A stretch of DNA of 64,000 bases. It comes from Gelidibacter mesophilus DSM 14095. Lineage in GTDB: Bacteria > Bacteroidota > Bacteroidia > Flavobacteriales > Flavobacteriaceae. The stretch covers positions 62,001 through 126,000 of the forward strand of contig NZ_AUHD01000006.1 in NCBI RefSeq assembly GCF_000423005.1. The letters run 5' to 3'. This document shows, piece after piece, positions 23,921-31,685 of the stretch. The notes beneath the pieces are model-generated. The model worked only from the letters and a program-made list of their open reading frames with translations. It was not told the origin of the DNA and searched no databases. Within the stretch, counting starts at the first letter, position 1. Each line of letters starts with the position of its first letter. The translations under genes were made by a program, and so were the position numbers.

Positions 23921-24736
23921 TTAACTTAATTTCAGTACTTGATTGTTGTAGAATTCGGTTAGTGGCTCGGCAAAGTCTTCTTGAGAATAGTAGTCCAAAA
24001 CAGGTTTATTAGAAGCTTTTAGGTAGTCTTCCAATTCCTCGGGGAGGTCAGAAGAACCCTTTATTAAAGCATCGGAATAATCAATTGCAACCTTCATTAG
24101 ATTATTGAAACTTGGTGTTTCTAAAACCTTAATGGCCGCTTCATCAATATTATCAAACTTCACTTTGTTTATCATGCCCTTATCTAACGTGCCTTCAAAG
24201 CTTTGATTGTATATTGAAGTCACTATTTTACTTTCAGAGAATAGGGGTTCATTTTTATAATACTCTTTAAGATAAATTGGAAGTAGTGAAGCCAACCATC
24301 CATTAACATGAATAATATCTGGAGCCCAATTGAGTTTTTTTACGGTTTCAATCACACCTTTGGCAAAAAATATGGCGCGTTCATCATTGTCAGGATAAAG
24401 GCTTCCATGTTCATCCGTTAAGGTTGCCTTTCTCTTAAAATATTCTTCGTTGTCAATGAAATAAACCTGAATCCTTTCTTTAGGAATTGAGGCCACTTTA
24501 ATGATCAAAGGCATGTCCAAGTCATTAATGACAAGATTTATTCCTGAAAGTCTTATTACTTCATGCAATTGGTGTCTACGTTCATTTATGTTTCCATACC
24601 TAGGCATGAATATTCGTATTTGTCCACCTTGTTTATTTACCATACGAGGTGCTTCAAATGACATTGAAGAAATCTCTGTTTCAGGCAAATAGGGTACAAC
24701 CTCGGAAGACACGTACAATATCCTCTTGTCTTTCAT
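23921..24736 (-). CDS. Glycogen/starch synthase N-domain protein (GT5-like)
   Basis: A 271-residue protein matching only the N-terminal Rossmann half of GT5 glycogen synthases: 'RILYVSSEVVPYLPETEISS', 'RIFMPRYGNINERRHQLHEV', 'DNDERAIFFAKGVIETVKKL', 'PDIIHVNGWLASLLPIYLKE'. The usual K-x-G-G-L substrate loop near the start is replaced by 'ETEIS'. The whole C-terminal nucleotide-sugar domain (about 200 residues) is absent, so ADP-glucose transfer as in true GlgA is unlikely. The gene is intact with its own promoter box and starts the operon with DUF4270 and glmS. A regulatory or sugar-sensing role is inference. Confidence 0.8.
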   Translation of the reverse strand: MKDKRILYVSSEVVPYLPETEISSMSFEAPRMVNKQGGQIRIFMPRYGNINERRHQLHEVIRLSGINLVINDLDMPLIIKVASIPKERIQVYFIDNEEYFKRKATLTDEHGSLYPDNDERAIFFAKGVIETVKKLNWAPDIIHVNGWLASLLPIYLKEYYKNEPLFSESKIVTSIYNQSFEGTLDKGMINKVKFDNIDEAAIKVLETPSFNNLMKVAIDYSDALIKGSSDLPEELEDYLKASNKPVLDYYSQEDFAEPLTEFYNNQVLKLS

Positions 24737-24847: not shown

Positions 24848-25696
24848 ATGATAATCCACCATAAAAAAGAAGATTTAAGACAGACTCTAAATGGGCTGAG
24901 GCACAAAAACCAAACTATTGGTTTCGTGCCTACTATGGGTGCCTTGCACGACGGACATTTGTCTTTAATTGATCAAGGGCTTCAAGAAAACGACAAGATG
25001 GTGGTCAGCATTTTTGTCAATCCAACACAATTTGACAATACCAACGATCTCGAAAAATATCCTAGAACCTTAGATCGTGATTTGAAATTTTTGAAAAGGT
25101 TGTCAGATGAGATCATTGTTTACGCTCCTATGGCAGATGATATATATGGAAGTAGTGTAACCTCTGAATATTTTGACTTTGATGGTTTGGAACATCAAAT
25201 GGAAGGTAAATTTCGCAAAGGTCATTTTGACGGAGTAGGAACCGTTGTAAAACGCTTATTCGAAATTGTAGCCCCTGATGCTGCTTACTTTGGAAACAAA
25301 GATTTTCAGCAACTCCGCATCATTCAGAAACTGGTACAAAAGCATGATCTGCCAGTAAACGTGGTAGGCTGTGAGATTTTTAGAGCTGAAGATGGGTTGG
25401 CCATGAGTTCCAGAAATGAGCGCTTAACAACAGCGCACCGTGATGCAGCGCCATTTATTTATAAGATACTAAAATCTGTCAAAATACGTTTTGGCACGGA
25501 AAGTGCAAATCAAGTAACGGAATGGGTTGTAAATCAGTTTGCAAAACATGATTTGTTGGAATTGGAATATTTCACCATTGCTGATGAAGCCACACTAGAA
25601 GCCGTTAAAAGAAAATCAAAATCAAAATCGTACAGAGCTTTTATTGCTGTATTTGCTGGAGATATCCGACTTATAGACAATATAGCACTTAATTAA
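24848..25696 (+). CDS. panC: Pantothenate synthetase
   Basis: A 282-residue enzyme joining pantoate and beta-alanine with ATP to make pantothenate. The nucleotidyltransferase signature is '[17 protein letters not shown]' (HDGH as the HIGH motif). Substrate-site segments include '[10 protein letters not shown]', '[20 protein letters not shown]', '[18 protein letters not shown]' and the KMSKS-equivalent '[11 protein letters not shown]'. It is followed 13 bases later by panD, which supplies its beta-alanine. Confidence 0.97.
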
Positions 25697-25697
25697 T

Positions 25698-25705
25698 TAC
25701 CTTTG
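25698..25705 (+). promoter_or_regulatory. Possible internal promoter box directly before panD
   Basis: TACCTTTG lies 4 bases before panD ATG 25710. If used, transcription would start at or next to the ATG. Confidence 0.35.
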
Positions 25706-25709
25706 CCAA

Positions 25710-26060
25710 ATGCAAATACAAGTTGTAAAATCGAAAATTCACCGCGTTAAATGTACAGGTGCCGAACTAAATTATATTGGAAGCATTACCATTGATGAAG
25801 ATTTAATGGATGCCGCCAATATTATTCAAGGCGAGAAGGTACAGATTGTCAATAACGATAATGGAGAGCGTTTGGATACTTACGTCATTCCTGGTCCTAG
25901 AAAATCTGGTGAAATAACCCTAAATGGTGCAGCAGCCCGAAAAGTAGCTGTTGGGGACACGCTCATTTTAATCACTTATGCGTTTATGGATTTGGAAGAA
26001 GCGCGAACCTTTAAACCTTCTTTGGTTTTTCCTGATGAAGCTACCAATCTACTTAAATAG
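25710..26060 (+). CDS. panD: Aspartate 1-decarboxylase
   Basis: A 116-residue pyruvoyl-dependent enzyme converting aspartate to beta-alanine. The self-cleavage site Gly-Ser is in '[20 protein letters not shown]', where Ser becomes the pyruvoyl group. '[20 protein letters not shown]' and '[20 protein letters not shown]' are also typical of the family. Length is normal. It is the middle gene of panC-panD-flippase. A TAnnTTTG box sits 4 bases before the ATG. Confidence 0.97.
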
Positions 26061-26062
26061 CT

Positions 26063-27034
26063 TTGAGCCCAAAGACTAAAAAAACATTAAGGATTGCCTT
26101 GCCTGTTGTATTGGCTGTGTTTTTTGGTTGGTATACGTTTTCAAAATTACCCATTGATCAAATCATTCCATATTTCAAAACAGCTCACTATGGCTGGATT
26201 TTTTTAGGAATGTCACTTGGTTTGTTCAGTAACTTGTCTCGCGCTTACAGGTGGAAGTATCTGCTGGCGCCTATGGGATACCGTTTGAAATATCCCAACA
26301 GCATCATGGCGGTTTTTATCACTTATCTAGCCAATTATGGAATTCCTAGATCAGGAGAGGTGCTGCGGGCGGCGGTATTGACCAACTATGAAGGGGTGCC
26401 ATTTCAAAAGGCCTTTGGAACAATCATTGCTGAGCGCATGGCTGATTTAATTGTGCTGTTGAGTATTGTTGCAATCACGCTTTTAATCCAATTTGATTTT
26501 ATCTTCCAGCTGTTGGAAAAATCCTTTCAACCAAAAAAGCTCATTCTCTTTGCTGTGATTGGGATTGTGTTTTGCACTATGATCTTTTTGTATCTAAAAA
26601 AAAGCCAGTCTAAAATAGCATTAAAAGTGCGCAATTTTGTGAAAGGTCTATTGGAAGGTATTTTAAGTATCTTTAAGATGGAGCATAAATGGGCGTTCAT
26701 TTTTCATACCCTCTTTATTTGGGTAATGTATGTCATGATGTTTTATGTTACCACTTTAGCTGTAGACGATTTAAGAGGTGTGTCCATTGGTGCGCTTTTA
26801 ATCGCTTTTATTGCGGGTAGTTTTACAATTGCTGCTACCAATGGAGGAATCTTTGTATACCCCTTGGCTATAGGTGCCGCCTTTTCACTTTTTGATATTC
26901 CAGAAAATCCAAGTATCGCCTTTGGATGGATCATATGGGCTTCCCAAACCCTAATGATTATTGTATTAGGGAGTCTTTCATTCTTGTTTTTGCCTATCTA
27001 TAATCGGAAAAATAAGATCATCAAGAAAGGCTGA
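26063..27034 (+). CDS. Flippase-like membrane protein (LPG synthase TM/UPF0104)
   Basis: A 323-residue polytopic membrane protein with about eight hydrophobic segments. Family marks are 'LSRAYRWKYLLAPMGYRLKY', 'NYGIPRSGEVLRAAVLTNYE', 'GTIIAERMADLIVLLSIVAI' and 'ATNGGIFVYPLAIGAAFSLF'. This is the YbhN/AglD-like family, related to the membrane part of lysylphosphatidylglycerol synthase; members are thought to move lipids or lipid-linked sugars. It lacks the aminoacyl-transferase domain. The start appears to be TTG at 26063, only 2 bases after the panD stop, giving tight coupling to pantothenate synthesis; no nearby ATG fits. Confidence 0.82.
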   Translation: MSPKTKKTLRIALPVVLAVFFGWYTFSKLPIDQIIPYFKTAHYGWIFLGMSLGLFSNLSRAYRWKYLLAPMGYRLKYPNSIMAVFITYLANYGIPRSGEVLRAAVLTNYEGVPFQKAFGTIIAERMADLIVLLSIVAITLLIQFDFIFQLLEKSFQPKKLILFAVIGIVFCTMIFLYLKKSQSKIALKVRNFVKGLLEGILSIFKMEHKWAFIFHTLFIWVMYVMMFYVTTLAVDDLRGVSIGALLIAFIAGSFTIAATNGGIFVYPLAIGAAFSLFDIPENPSIAFGWIIWASQTLMIIVLGSLSFLFLPIYNRKNKIIKKG

Positions 27035-27118: not shown

Positions 27119-28258
27119 ATGCACAAATTTACCCTACTCTTATTATTTCTTACCAGCATTTTTATGGATGCGCAGGTAATCTACGAGCCATTTCATTCGT
27201 CAAAATTAGGAGAAACCAGAGAAATTAAGATTCAGTTGCCGCGAAACTACAATCCTGAGGATAAGACGGAGTACCCGTTGGTGATCGTTTTGGATGGCGA
27301 TTATTTATTTGAACCTTTTGCAGGAAATATTGATTACCAATCCTATTGGGGTGAAATGCCAAAATGTGTGGTGGTTGGTATCAACCAAAGTAAAAGTCGT
27401 GAAAAAGACCTTTTTTATGATAAGGAAATTTATTTTCCGGCCCATGAAGGCGCCTCTTTTTTTGAATTTATTGGGATGGAGTTGATTCCTTATATTGAAA
27501 GTAAATATAATGTCTCAAAATTCCGAATTGTGGCCGGACATGATTTGAGTGCCAATTTTATCAATTATTACTTATTTAAGGACAACCCAATTTTTAGGGC
27601 ATTCATTTTATTCAGTCCAGACTTGGCTCCAGAAATGACCTTGAGAGTTCAGGAGCGACTATCCACGCTAACCACAGATACTTTTTATTATTTAGCCACT
27701 GCTGATAATGACATCTCTAGTTTAAAAGCGCCTATTGTTAGTCACAATAGTCAATTGGGTGCTTTGAGCAATCCGAAATTACATTACCGGTTTGACGATT
27801 TTAAGGATGCAGACCACTATTCGTTGGTAGGTTTGGGAATTCCGAAAGCGCTAAATGACATATTTTCCTTGTATAAACCCATCAATAAACAAGAATACAC
27901 AGATAAGGTGTTGACCTATGAGGAAGGTCCTTATAAATATCTTGAGAAAAAATATGATGATATTAAGTTCTTCTACGGATTTGAGAAAAAAGTGGTTGAA
28001 AATGATATGAAGGCCGTAGCGGCTGCTGCAGAAAAGAAAGACGATTTGGAGTCTTTTAAAAGTTTATCCAAACTGGCAAGGAAGGAATTTCCTGAATCTA
28101 TGATCAGTGCCTATTATATGGGCTTATATTATGAAAAGGATAATAACCTTAAAAAAGCTTTGCAATATTACCAATCTGGTCTACTATTAACCGCTTCTGA
28201 TTATATCAGTAAAGATGATCTGTTGGATAAGATATATGCTATAAAAGAGCAAAAATAA
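27119..28258 (+). CDS. Esterase-like alpha/beta-hydrolase, copy A, Asp at nucleophile site
   Basis: A 379-residue secreted protein (signal 'MHKFTLLLLFLTSIFMDAQ'). Residues about 20-270 follow the enterochelin-esterase/esterase D fold: 'REIKIQLPRNYNPEDKTEYP', 'LVIVLDGDYLFEP', 'MPKCVVVGINQ' and the elbow 'FRIVAGHDLSANF'. The elbow Ser of GxSxG is Asp142 here. A His is kept in 'DADHYSLVGLG'. The C-terminal 100 residues form helical, TPR-like repeats ('ISAYYMGLYYEKDNNLKKAL'). The next gene is a close paralogue with the same Asp. Either the pair uses an Asp nucleophile or both are non-catalytic binding proteins. Confidence 0.8.
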   Translation: MHKFTLLLLFLTSIFMDAQVIYEPFHSSKLGETREIKIQLPRNYNPEDKTEYPLVIVLDGDYLFEPFAGNIDYQSYWGEMPKCVVVGINQSKSREKDLFYDKEIYFPAHEGASFFEFIGMELIPYIESKYNVSKFRIVAGHDLSANFINYYLFKDNPIFRAFILFSPDLAPEMTLRVQERLSTLTTDTFYYLATADNDISSLKAPIVSHNSQLGALSNPKLHYRFDDFKDADHYSLVGLGIPKALNDIFSLYKPINKQEYTDKVLTYEEGPYKYLEKKYDDIKFFYGFEKKVVENDMKAVAAAAEKKDDLESFKSLSKLARKEFPESMISAYYMGLYYEKDNNLKKALQYYQSGLLLTASDYISKDDLLDKIYAIKEQK

Positions 28259-28342
28259 ATATATTACGCATTTCATCGAATATTTTATACAGATCAACCG
28301 AATTTGTATATATTTACCATCCCAAACCCTAAACCTACTACG

Positions 28343-29509
28343 ATGAAAAAAGCCCTACTTTTTCTCTTCATCTTGCTGTGTACTGTTTCCATAGAAGCAC
28401 AAACGATTTATGAAACTTTCCAATCCAGAAGGTTAAACGCGACCAGAGAACTAAAGATCCAACTTCCTAAGAATTACGATCCGGATTCTGATTTGAAATA
28501 TCCCGTTATTGTTGTTTTTGATGGCGATTATCTTTTTGAGCCAGTGGTTGGGCAAGTGGCTTTTCAAACGTACTTTGATAAAATGCCTGAATCAATTGTG
28601 GTTGGTTTAGTGCAATCAAATGATCGGTTTTATGACAGCTACCATGATGAGGTTACAGGCTTGCCTATTGAATTTGGAGCACGTTTTTATGAATTCATCA
28701 GCACGGAATTGATCCCTTATATTGATCAAAAATATAAAACCAGTAAATTCAAAGTAGCGGTTGGGCACGATTTAATGGGGAATTTTATGAATGCCTTCTT
28801 ATTAAAGGACTCTCCAATATTCAAAGCCTATGTCAACTTAAGCCCCGATTTTAAAGGGCATATGGATGACAACGTCAGTAATAGATTGAAATGGTTGAAA
28901 GAAGATGTCTTTTATTACATGGTGACCAGTGATAATGACATTGCGCCACTTCGGGCAGGTATTCTTGAAGCCAACCAAAAATTGGAACAGGTGGATAATA
29001 GGGCCTTAAAGTACTATTTTGATGATTTTACTGGAGATTCTCATTATACTTTGGTGACAGGCGCTTTATCGCAAGCTTTGGATAAAATATTTGAACTCTA
29101 TAAGCCAATTAGCGATCGGGAGTTTAAGGAAGATATCCTAACCTATGAGGGTACCCTAGATACTTATATCAGCAAGCGTTACAAAAAGATTGAAGATCTA
29201 TTTGGGATCCATAAACCGATTTCTGAAGGCGAATTTGAAAAAATCATCATGGCAGCAGAGCAACGTAATGATGTAGCATCTTTAGAGAAGATTGGGAAAT
29301 TAGCCAATAAACAAGATCCAACAACCTCTTATGGCACTTACTATATGGCGCTCCATGCGGAGCGTATAGGAAAAACCAAACGCGCTAAAAAGTTGTATGA
29401 GTCTGCTTTAAATTTAGAATCTACCCATATTGACAAAGATTTGATCCTCTTAAAAGTAGAAAGTCTCACCGTGGCTACAGATGATAATGAAAGTGATATT
29501 GACGATTAA
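28343..29509 (+). CDS. Esterase-like alpha/beta-hydrolase, copy B, Asp at nucleophile site
   Basis: A 388-residue paralogue of the gene before it with the same layout: signal 'MKKALLFLFILLCTVSIEAQ', hydrolase fold with 'VIVVFDGDYLFEP', elbow 'FKVAVGHDLMGNF' (Asp143 where Ser is expected), His in 'GDSHYTLVTGAL', and C-terminal TPR-like helices ('YGTYYMALHAERIGKTKRAK') with an acidic tail. I start at ATG 28343, which begins the signal peptide; the longer frame from 28304 puts non-signal residues before it. The 84-base gap and similar sequence point to a tandem duplication. Confidence 0.8.
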   Translation: MKKALLFLFILLCTVSIEAQTIYETFQSRRLNATRELKIQLPKNYDPDSDLKYPVIVVFDGDYLFEPVVGQVAFQTYFDKMPESIVVGLVQSNDRFYDSYHDEVTGLPIEFGARFYEFISTELIPYIDQKYKTSKFKVAVGHDLMGNFMNAFLLKDSPIFKAYVNLSPDFKGHMDDNVSNRLKWLKEDVFYYMVTSDNDIAPLRAGILEANQKLEQVDNRALKYYFDDFTGDSHYTLVTGALSQALDKIFELYKPISDREFKEDILTYEGTLDTYISKRYKKIEDLFGIHKPISEGEFEKIIMAAEQRNDVASLEKIGKLANKQDPTTSYGTYYMALHAERIGKTKRAKKLYESALNLESTHIDKDLILLKVESLTVATDDNESDIDD

Positions 29510-29800: not shown

Positions 29801-31159
29801 ATGGCTAAATTAAAAACAACCTTTTTTTGTCAAAACTGTGGCAGTCAGTATTCTAAATGGCAAGGACAGTGTACGGCTTGTAAAGAATGGAATACCATTG
29901 TTGAAGAAGTACTTCAGAAAGAGGAAAAATCCAATTGGAAAACTCCAACTTCAACCCCAAAACGGGCTTCAAAACCTTTAAGGATCAATGAAATTGATGT
30001 CTCTCAGGAAGCTCGAATGCATACCGAAGATGAAGAATTCAACCGTGTTCTGGGCGGCGGTATTGTTCCGGGATCTTTGATTTTGTTGGGTGGAGAACCC
30101 GGTATTGGTAAGAGTACGCTCTTACTTCAAATCTCACTCAAATTGCCCTATAAAACACTCTACGTCTCAGGAGAGGAAAGTCAGCAGCAAATTAAGATGC
30201 GAGCCGATAGGATCAATCCCAATAGTGCGAATTGCTATATTTTAACCGAGACGAAAACGCAGAATATCTTTAAGCAGATTGAAGCTTTGGAACCTGATAT
30301 TGTGGTAATCGATTCTATTCAAACCTTGCATAGTGATTATATTGAATCGTCTTCGGGAAGTATTTCCCAAATTAAGGAATGCACTACGGAACTTATCAAA
30401 TTTGCAAAGGAAACGGCTACTCCCGTGATTTTAATTGGACATATCACAAAAGACGGGAATATTGCCGGACCCAAAATTTTGGAACATATGGTGGATACCG
30501 TCTTGCAGTTTGAAGGCGATAGGAATCATGTTTTTAGAATTTTGAGAGCGCATAAAAACCGCTTCGGATCTACTAATGAACTCGGGATATATGAAATGCA
30601 AGGCTCTGGTCTGCGTGAAGTTTCCAATCCCTCAGAGATCTTAATTTCAAAAAAGGACGAGGAACTTTCGGGCAACGCCGTAGCTTCCACATTGGAAGGG
30701 ATGCGGCCGTTGATGATTGAGGTGCAAGCGTTGGTGAGCACTGCAGTTTACGGCACCCCACAACGATCGGCGACCGGGTTTAATGCCAAACGTTTAAATA
30801 TGCTTTTGGCGGTTTTGGAAAAACGTGCCGGATTTAGATTAGGCGCTAAAGACGTTTTCCTAAATATCACTGGAGGCATCTCAGTAGATGATCCCGCCAT
30901 TGATTTGGCGGTCGTTGCAGCGGTTTTATCTTCAAATGAAGATGTTGCCATTCCTAAAGATTATTGCTTTTCAGCGGAGGTTGGCTTATCAGGAGAAATC
31001 AGGCCTGTACAACGGGTTGAACAACGAATTTTAGAGGCTGAAAAATTAGGGTTTTCAACCATTTTCGTATCCAAATACAATAAAATAGCGCTTAAAAACA
31101 CAGGCATCAAAATTCAGTTGATTTCTAAAATTGAGGATTTGGTGAGTTTTCTGGTGTAG
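29801..31159 (+). CDS. radA: DNA repair protein RadA
   Basis: A 452-residue branch-migration helicase. It has an N-terminal zinc finger 'CQNCGSQYSKWQGQCTAC', Walker A 'GGEPGIGKSTLLLQI', the RadA-specific KNRFG motif in 'AHKNRFGSTNELGIYEM', and a C-terminal Lon-protease-like domain ('GFNAKRLNMLLAVLEKRAGF', 'ITGGISVDDPAIDLAVVAAV'). Full length. It stands alone, with 290 AT-rich bases upstream where I see no clear promoter. Confidence 0.97.
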   Translation: MAKLKTTFFCQNCGSQYSKWQGQCTACKEWNTIVEEVLQKEEKSNWKTPTSTPKRASKPLRINEIDVSQEARMHTEDEEFNRVLGGGIVPGSLILLGGEPGIGKSTLLLQISLKLPYKTLYVSGEESQQQIKMRADRINPNSANCYILTETKTQNIFKQIEALEPDIVVIDSIQTLHSDYIESSSGSISQIKECTTELIKFAKETATPVILIGHITKDGNIAGPKILEHMVDTVLQFEGDRNHVFRILRAHKNRFGSTNELGIYEMQGSGLREVSNPSEILISKKDEELSGNAVASTLEGMRPLMIEVQALVSTAVYGTPQRSATGFNAKRLNMLLAVLEKRAGFRLGAKDVFLNITGGISVDDPAIDLAVVAAVLSSNEDVAIPKDYCFSAEVGLSGEIRPVQRVEQRILEAEKLGFSTIFVSKYNKIALKNTGIKIQLISKIEDLVSFLV

Positions 31160-31220: not shown

Positions 31221-31685
31221 ATGAGAAAAGCCGTTCAAATCGTAATTATTTTAGTCTTGTTCGCATCCTGCGGACCCAAACCAAGTAAATCTATTGCTCA
31301 TGTCACGAAAGAGATAGATACCTATATTTTAAAAGTTGATGCTAAAACCAATCTCAAAGAAGAGCGGACTGAAGGCGCTTTAACAGATGCTGAAGGGTTT
31401 AAAGATATCGGAAAGTTTAAATACACCGTATATTTTGATGAGAAAACCAATGAACTGTATAAAATTAGAAATATTGAAATGACGGATAAAACCATTTCGG
31501 AAACTTATTATTTTAAGGATGATGATTTGGTGCGCATCGATACCGATATTAAAGGGGTTTCCGGTCAAATGTATGTTCAAAAGTATAAATTTATTTCTGA
31601 ACATAAGACGGATGCCAAAACACAAAAATTATTGTTGGAAAAGGCAAGGCGCTTTCAGAAAAATTTTAATAAAGAGCATGAGTAA
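31221..31685 (+). CDS. Small lipoprotein of unknown function
   Basis: A 154-residue protein with a lipoprotein signal ('MRKAVQIVIILVLFASC', Cys 17). The mature part is rich in charged residues and beta-strands ('DIGKFKYTVYFDEKTNELYK', 'ISETYYFKDDDLVRIDTDIK') and ends in a basic helix ('LLLEKARRFQKNFNKEHE'). I recognise no named family. It lies between radA and ileS. Confidence 0.72.
   Translation: MRKAVQIVIILVLFASCGPKPSKSIAHVTKEIDTYILKVDAKTNLKEERTEGALTDAEGFKDIGKFKYTVYFDEKTNELYKIRNIEMTDKTISETYYFKDDDLVRIDTDIKGVSGQMYVQKYKFISEHKTDAKTQKLLLEKARRFQKNFNKEHE

Follow-up and report, generated by a model that had tools for sequence, protein, structure and literature searches.

The two adjacent genes analyzed here, both on the forward strand of the window (the whole stretch of 64,000 nucleotides that was studied), are best explained as a tandem pair from a pseudo-esterase family of the Flavobacteriaceae and as putative periplasmic binding or scaffold proteins, a reading to which we assign a probability of roughly 0.75. 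Members of this family combine an esterase-fold domain with a TPR-like domain, form one clade, have lost the nucleophilic serine, are under purifying selection and lie in a conserved gene neighbourhood. These data argue for a conserved pseudo-esterase, which would bind a ligand or a partner protein, over both catalysis by the aspartate at the nucleophile position and decay. A secreted binding protein had been the second option of the preliminary description of this DNA, and it is the option that fits best, with binding as the presumed role.

The two paralogues share 43% identity across 369 aligned columns (Table 1). For copy 2, the ATG start codon is preferred in view of a signal peptide (…IEA|Q) recognized by eye; the mechanically called TTG at 28304 is also possible. 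Glutamine occupies the column directly after the signal peptide in 204 or 212 of the 212 non-redundant family members, varying with the alignment used, in keeping with the Q-rule of Bacteroidetes (PMC5837995). Both window copies match the esterase profile PF00756 with 43 and 46.8 bits (cut-off 22), as do 70/71 aligned family members at E ≤ 0.01. Neither contains the serine of the GxSxG motif. As had been described, both read GHDL with an aspartate instead (residues 140–143 in copy 1 and 141–144 in copy 2) and keep a downstream histidine, which aligns with a histidine of BES (2qm0). An acid and a histidine stand at the triad positions of either protein (D198/H233 in copy 1, D199/H234 in copy 2).

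Table 1 Features of the two tandem genes, their conserved neighbours and related third copies. Positions refer to the window, except for the third copies, which are given in their own fetched loci.
Feature	Position	Strand	Description	Basis
panC, panD, flippase-like LPG_synthase_TM protein	24848..27034	+	conserved upstream neighbours	
Copy 1 (E1)	27119..28258	+	379 aa; signal peptide, esterase-fold domain, TPR-like C-terminal domain	ORF, PF00756, AF2 model
Signal peptide of copy 1	27119..27172	+	predicted mature N-terminus Gln19 (Bacteroidetes Q-rule)	by eye
GHDL at nucleophile-elbow position, copy 1	27536..27547	+	Asp142 = 27542-27544	
Asp198, copy 1	27710..27712	+	usual acid position, directly after core strand	
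His233, copy 1	27815..27817	+	catalytic-His position	
TPR-like domain, copy 1 residues 256-379	27884..28255	+	mean pLDDT 97.3	separate model
Copy 2 (E2)	28343..29509	+	388 aa counted from ATG 28343	ORF, PF00756, identity to copy 1
Signal peptide of copy 2	28343..28399	+	Gln20 next	by eye
GHDL at elbow position, copy 2	28763..28774	+	Asp143 = 28769-28771; +2 position = Met	
His234, copy 2	29042..29044	+	aligned with copy 1 His233	
radA	29801..31159	+	conserved downstream neighbour	
Third copy, locus L209	7553-8401			
Third copy, locus L210	6136-7050			
Third copy, locus L211	6178-7014			
Third copy, locus L222	6225-7049			
Third copy, locus L228	6267-7157			

The AF2 model of copy 1 (residues 17–379, based on 71 family sequences; copy 1 numbering equals the model number plus 16) reached a mean pLDDT of 96.8. 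At the elbow, the strand ends with H141, D142 forms the turn and the helix begins with L143. Structure prediction, proposed earlier as a way of placing the acid and the histidine, located D198 after the next-to-last core strand and H233 after the last one. Using Foldseek and VIA-align, the best structural match was 4W9R (Z 41.8, rmsd 2.8, 357 aligned), followed by BES 2QM0 (Z 28.2, rmsd 2.4, 230 aligned); the IroE-like 3GFF matched with Z 26.7 and rmsd 5.1 (286 aligned). The C-terminal part alone again found 4W9R (Z 19.7, rmsd 1.5, 123 aligned) and, after it, many TPR domains with Z of about 9.4–10.4, where values below about 13 can mean a mere common helical arrangement. TPR_2 was detected at E ≤ 0.01 in 12/71 family members, with the window proteins below the Pfam TPR cut-offs, and designed TPR proteins are hit by the family profile with whole-sequence E-values down to 2.8e-09, no single stretch passing by itself. 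In view of these matches, we call the C-terminal helices TPR-like, as the preliminary description did.

Next, we considered the family as a whole. Of 373 unique aligned homologues, 331 were assigned to the family (more than 140 bits, at least 300 residues covered); the 42 rows left out comprise 33 non-family proteins and 9 fragments or C-terminal-less copies. From the full-length members, a non-redundant set of 212 sequences below 80% identity was selected by score and coverage, ignoring the elbow residue. To be without serine is unusual for this fold: serine is present at the elbow column in 33/33 of the non-family homologues, and the remaining 10 PF00756 hits in the genome of the window (one below the Pfam cut-off, one with a stop inside the match) each contain an in-frame G-x-S motif, identified as a pattern only and unplaced in the fold. 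In a tree of 63 family rows and 19 serine esterases, from which columns 140–149 were excluded, the family forms a single clade with 99/99 support (the 19 were chosen from the 33 at less than 70% identity, omitting locus L329). The elbow residues represented inside this clade are Arg, Asn, Asp, Gln, Glu, Gly and Thr.

The Flavobacteriales esterases of the GHSYGG/GHSYAG type (alignment A4) share the architecture and a similar C-terminal part with the family, but form a separate clade and have kept the serine in 7/7 aligned sequences. The profile–profile match between the family and the serine-bearing GHSYGG-type proteins spans 351 columns including the TPR-like part (probability 99.9, E 8.2e-35). 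This match supports the view that the family probably descends from a serine esterase that was built in the same way and lost its serine.

Several further positions set the family apart from the serine esterases. Compared with 20 of these (from the 33 at less than 70% identity), Q90 is found in 205/212 versus 0/20 sequences, N146 in 197/212 versus 0/20, N149 in 207/212 versus 1/20 and Y190 in 204/212 versus 1/20. Within the family, P41, P81 and A347 are invariant and E121, D59, D97 and Y279 nearly so. At the former catalytic positions, D198 and H233 occur together in 161/212 members, 158 of which also have H141; histidine fills the H233 column in 176/212 members and is kept in all first (82/82) and all second copies (82/82) of the two-copy loci. 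Retention of H141, D198 and H233 exceeds the strict needs of a dead site; these residues may still serve in structure or binding, or some chemistry may be left.

Since this retention of the dyad is the main unexplained point, we give some weight to a chemistry without a nucleophile, in which D198 and H233 would act as a general base on water or substrate. There is a precedent in the cofactor-free dioxygenases of the alpha/beta-hydrolase fold, and the dyad is present in 43 of the 48 members with Gly at the elbow. However, it is broken in whole branches, namely in the GYDI members (Lys198 in one alignment, a gap in the other) and the GKN members (Leu198/Glu233), both of which occupy the same gene neighbourhood, and also in the GNTL branch, located elsewhere in the genome. 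We therefore regard such a chemistry as unlikely. Between branches, columns 141/198/233 switch as sets (H/D/H, Y/K/H, N/N/K), which suggests contact between these residues, though confounded by descent.

The elbow itself speaks to the idea, raised in the preliminary description, that both copies may use aspartate chemistry. Among the 212 non-redundant members, the elbow residue is Asp in 129, Gly in 48, Asn in 13, Thr in 11, Glu in 7, Arg in 2, Gln in 1 and Ser in 1 (all 331 members: D234 G53 N22 T11 E7 R2 Q1 S1), counts which refer to fetched loci and are no census, with 80 loci obtained from patterns built on the two window proteins and low scorers deliberately included. The nine fragments and short family copies show G4 D2 E1 K1 S1. 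Single-copy loci with the conserved neighbourhood (n = 93) have Asp in 45, Gly in 41, Glu in 4, Asn in 2 and Arg in 1 case and never Ser; in two-copy loci (n = 82) Asp prevails in the first (D78 N2 G1 E1) and in the second copies (D66 N16). Asp is thus not conserved as a clade, and it is not required family-wide, because Gly, Asn and other residues replace it in family members, including single-copy loci of the same neighbourhood. That two copies keep Asp had been taken as evidence against decay; this carries little weight given that the second copy has Asn in 16/82 two-copy loci. The opposite pattern, Ser in the same clade next to random residues as a sign of simple decay, was not found either, with Ser in 1/331 members and the substitutes drawn from a restricted set.

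On a FastTree tree built with columns 140–146 omitted, the elbow residue changed about 28 times, an approximate count in view of 76/209 weak (open) branches. With 28 versus 45 changes, the elbow column is slower than the median column (107th slowest of 356) and consequently under some constraint; the columns of D59, D97 and E121 are far slower still and rank within the slowest 17. Active elbows are expected to carry a small residue two positions after the nucleophile. In the family, this position holds Thr in 123, Ser in 40, Met in 32, Gly in 13 and Ala in 4 of the 212 members, so that Gly or Ala is found in 17/212 as against 29/33 of the non-family serine proteins; of the window copies, copy 2 breaks the rule with Met and copy 1 is borderline with Ser. 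We also considered whether an acid one residue further on (GHGE) makes up for the change, but this is not a rule: an acid at 142 or 143 is present in 168/212 members and absent in 44.

A hydrolase of the haloalkane dehalogenase or epoxide hydrolase kind, in which Asp142 would attack the substrate and H233 with D198 would activate water, appears very unlikely on these grounds. The GHD elbow with its intact predicted strand–turn–helix, the acid and histidine in place, the joint presence of the dyad in 103 of the 129 Asp members and the Asp of the first copies would suit it, but Gly in 41/93 single-copy loci of the same neighbourhood, Asn in second copies and Met at +2 in window copy 2 would not. 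Moreover, comparisons of sequence and of fold both point to 4W9R and to Fes/BES/CE1-type esterases as the nearest matches. Such chemistry could still hold if restricted to Asp branches. In the pseudo-esterase explanation, Asp142 would then be one among several residues tolerated at a retired nucleophile position. Some findings count against this preferred explanation: the combination of H141, D198 and H233 in most members, with H233 kept throughout the two-copy loci; Asp as the rule for first copies in the two-copy group to which the window belongs; and the slower-than-median elbow column.

As a next step, we looked at distribution and selection. A match at E ≤ 1e-3 was obtained in 214/249 Flavobacteriaceae genomes and a strong match (E about 1e-40 or better, counted by eye) in about 209/249; across 196 genomes of the order, other families never scored better than E 8.9e-25. 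The gene order panC-panD-flippase-[esterase-like gene(s)]-radA is conserved. Among 195 loci of at least 8 kb with a family member, the member directly follows the flippase-like gene in 175 and directly precedes radA in 171, at least one of the two being true of 178, and the remaining 17 have no marker neighbours; these numbers leave aside the window and one duplicate, with which they become 177/197 after the flippase and 173/197 before radA. The flippase-like protein was rejected as an obligate partner. When 20 of the 35/249 genomes without a match to the esterase-like gene were tested, 16 proved to have the flippase, and the flippase was not found in one genome that does carry the esterase-like gene (G134). 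Median dN/dS was 0.061 for copy 1 (23/45 pairs usable) and 0.063 for copy 2 (26/36), similar to the flippase (0.062), below panC (0.133) and above panD (0.017), radA (0.016) and the glgA-like gene (0.039). The family is under strong purifying selection.

That a redundant esterase copy has simply decayed is hardly credible: the variable elbow residue would agree with it, as would the third copy of some genera, which lacks the C-terminal part and has a scrambled elbow, but not dN/dS values of about 0.06, the presence of a strong match in most genomes of the Flavobacteriaceae, the conserved neighbourhood, the invariant residues and the newly fixed Gln90, Asn146, Asn149 and Tyr190, and the earlier view that the pair does not reflect random decay is upheld on this basis.

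For the pseudo-esterase family, we propose the following mode of action. The proteins would be exported to the periplasm and processed by signal peptidase I, would use no covalent nucleophile, and would bind a ligand or partner protein through the remodelled former active site, the TPR-like surface or both. Tandem duplication in the Gelidibacter/Psychroserpens/Winogradskyella group may then have given rise to two binding variants. By analogy with plant hormone receptors, which are built on a hydrolase fold, one could go further, although we consider this extension doubtful: an exported esterase carrying a helical tail might have become a ligand receptor when the Flavobacteriaceae were still young. 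Its former active site, with fixed Gln90, Asn146 and Asn149 and a freed nucleophile position, would hold a specific small molecule, and the TPR-like domain would relay binding to an envelope partner. If so, almost the entire family Flavobacteriaceae would share this sensor or carrier in the periplasm.

Esterase-fold enzymes are already known to have non-catalytic relatives. An example is the mycobacterial MPT51/FbpC1, which, unlike the present family, is not known to carry a TPR-like domain. This relative of antigen 85 is reportedly non-catalytic (Wilson et al. 2004, cited in PMC8875947). The siderophore-type esterases IroE, Fes and BES (PF00756; 3GFF, 2QM0) agree with the family in fold, in the position of the histidine and in the R94/D97 and D59 motifs, but the elbow reads GHS in both 3GFF and 2QM0, where the family has almost entirely lost the serine, and the family has added Q90, N146 and N149. 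The one solved member of the family, the uncharacterised Coch_1243 of Capnocytophaga ochracea (PDB 4W9R), is a full-length two-domain relative (profile E 1.9e-104) and likewise has an elbow without serine. It differs from the window copies in reading ASEEAG instead of GHDL and in having Val at the histidine column, so that both Ser and His are absent, and the one among the fetched loci that shares its elbow (L304) is, unlike the window, situated outside the panCD/radA neighbourhood.

In open PubMed Central papers, we found nothing on the function of the family, and 4W9R/Coch_1243 was met only in a docking paper, which lists it among homodimer docking targets and, following Pfam, describes it as a putative esterase (PMC5030136). 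Within the same collection, our search revealed no account of the family-wide serine loss and nothing relevant in the literature on pseudoenzymes with a hydrolase fold or among the papers listed for signature proteins and for transposon and essential-gene studies (panD, radA). The Pfam profile labels these proteins putative esterases, though the family as a whole is without the nucleophile. Because of its presence in most sampled Flavobacteriaceae, its solved yet unexplained structure and its mostly fixed gene neighbourhood, the family may have a role that is fundamental to the envelope of these bacteria and open to genetic testing in laboratory species.

Further observations concern the surroundings of the two genes. 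Divergently oriented beside panC, a gene of 271 aa (23921-24736, minus strand) matches only the starch synthase catalytic domain (PF08323); it keeps this place next to panC in almost every locus that has the conserved gene order and resembles half a glycogen synthase in a fixed position. On the other side, radA is adjoined by a lipoprotein-like ORF of 154 aa (31221-31685, plus strand) that matches nothing in Pfam at E ≤ 0.001 and for which phmmer gave only 13 hits in the window plus the entire set of fetched loci. Finally, some genera possess a third tandem copy that lacks the TPR-like domain and measures 275–305 aa between stop codons. The aligned third copies (Table 1) display the scrambled elbows GHSE, GYEK, GYKH, GDDN and GHGK, as if they were evolving fast.
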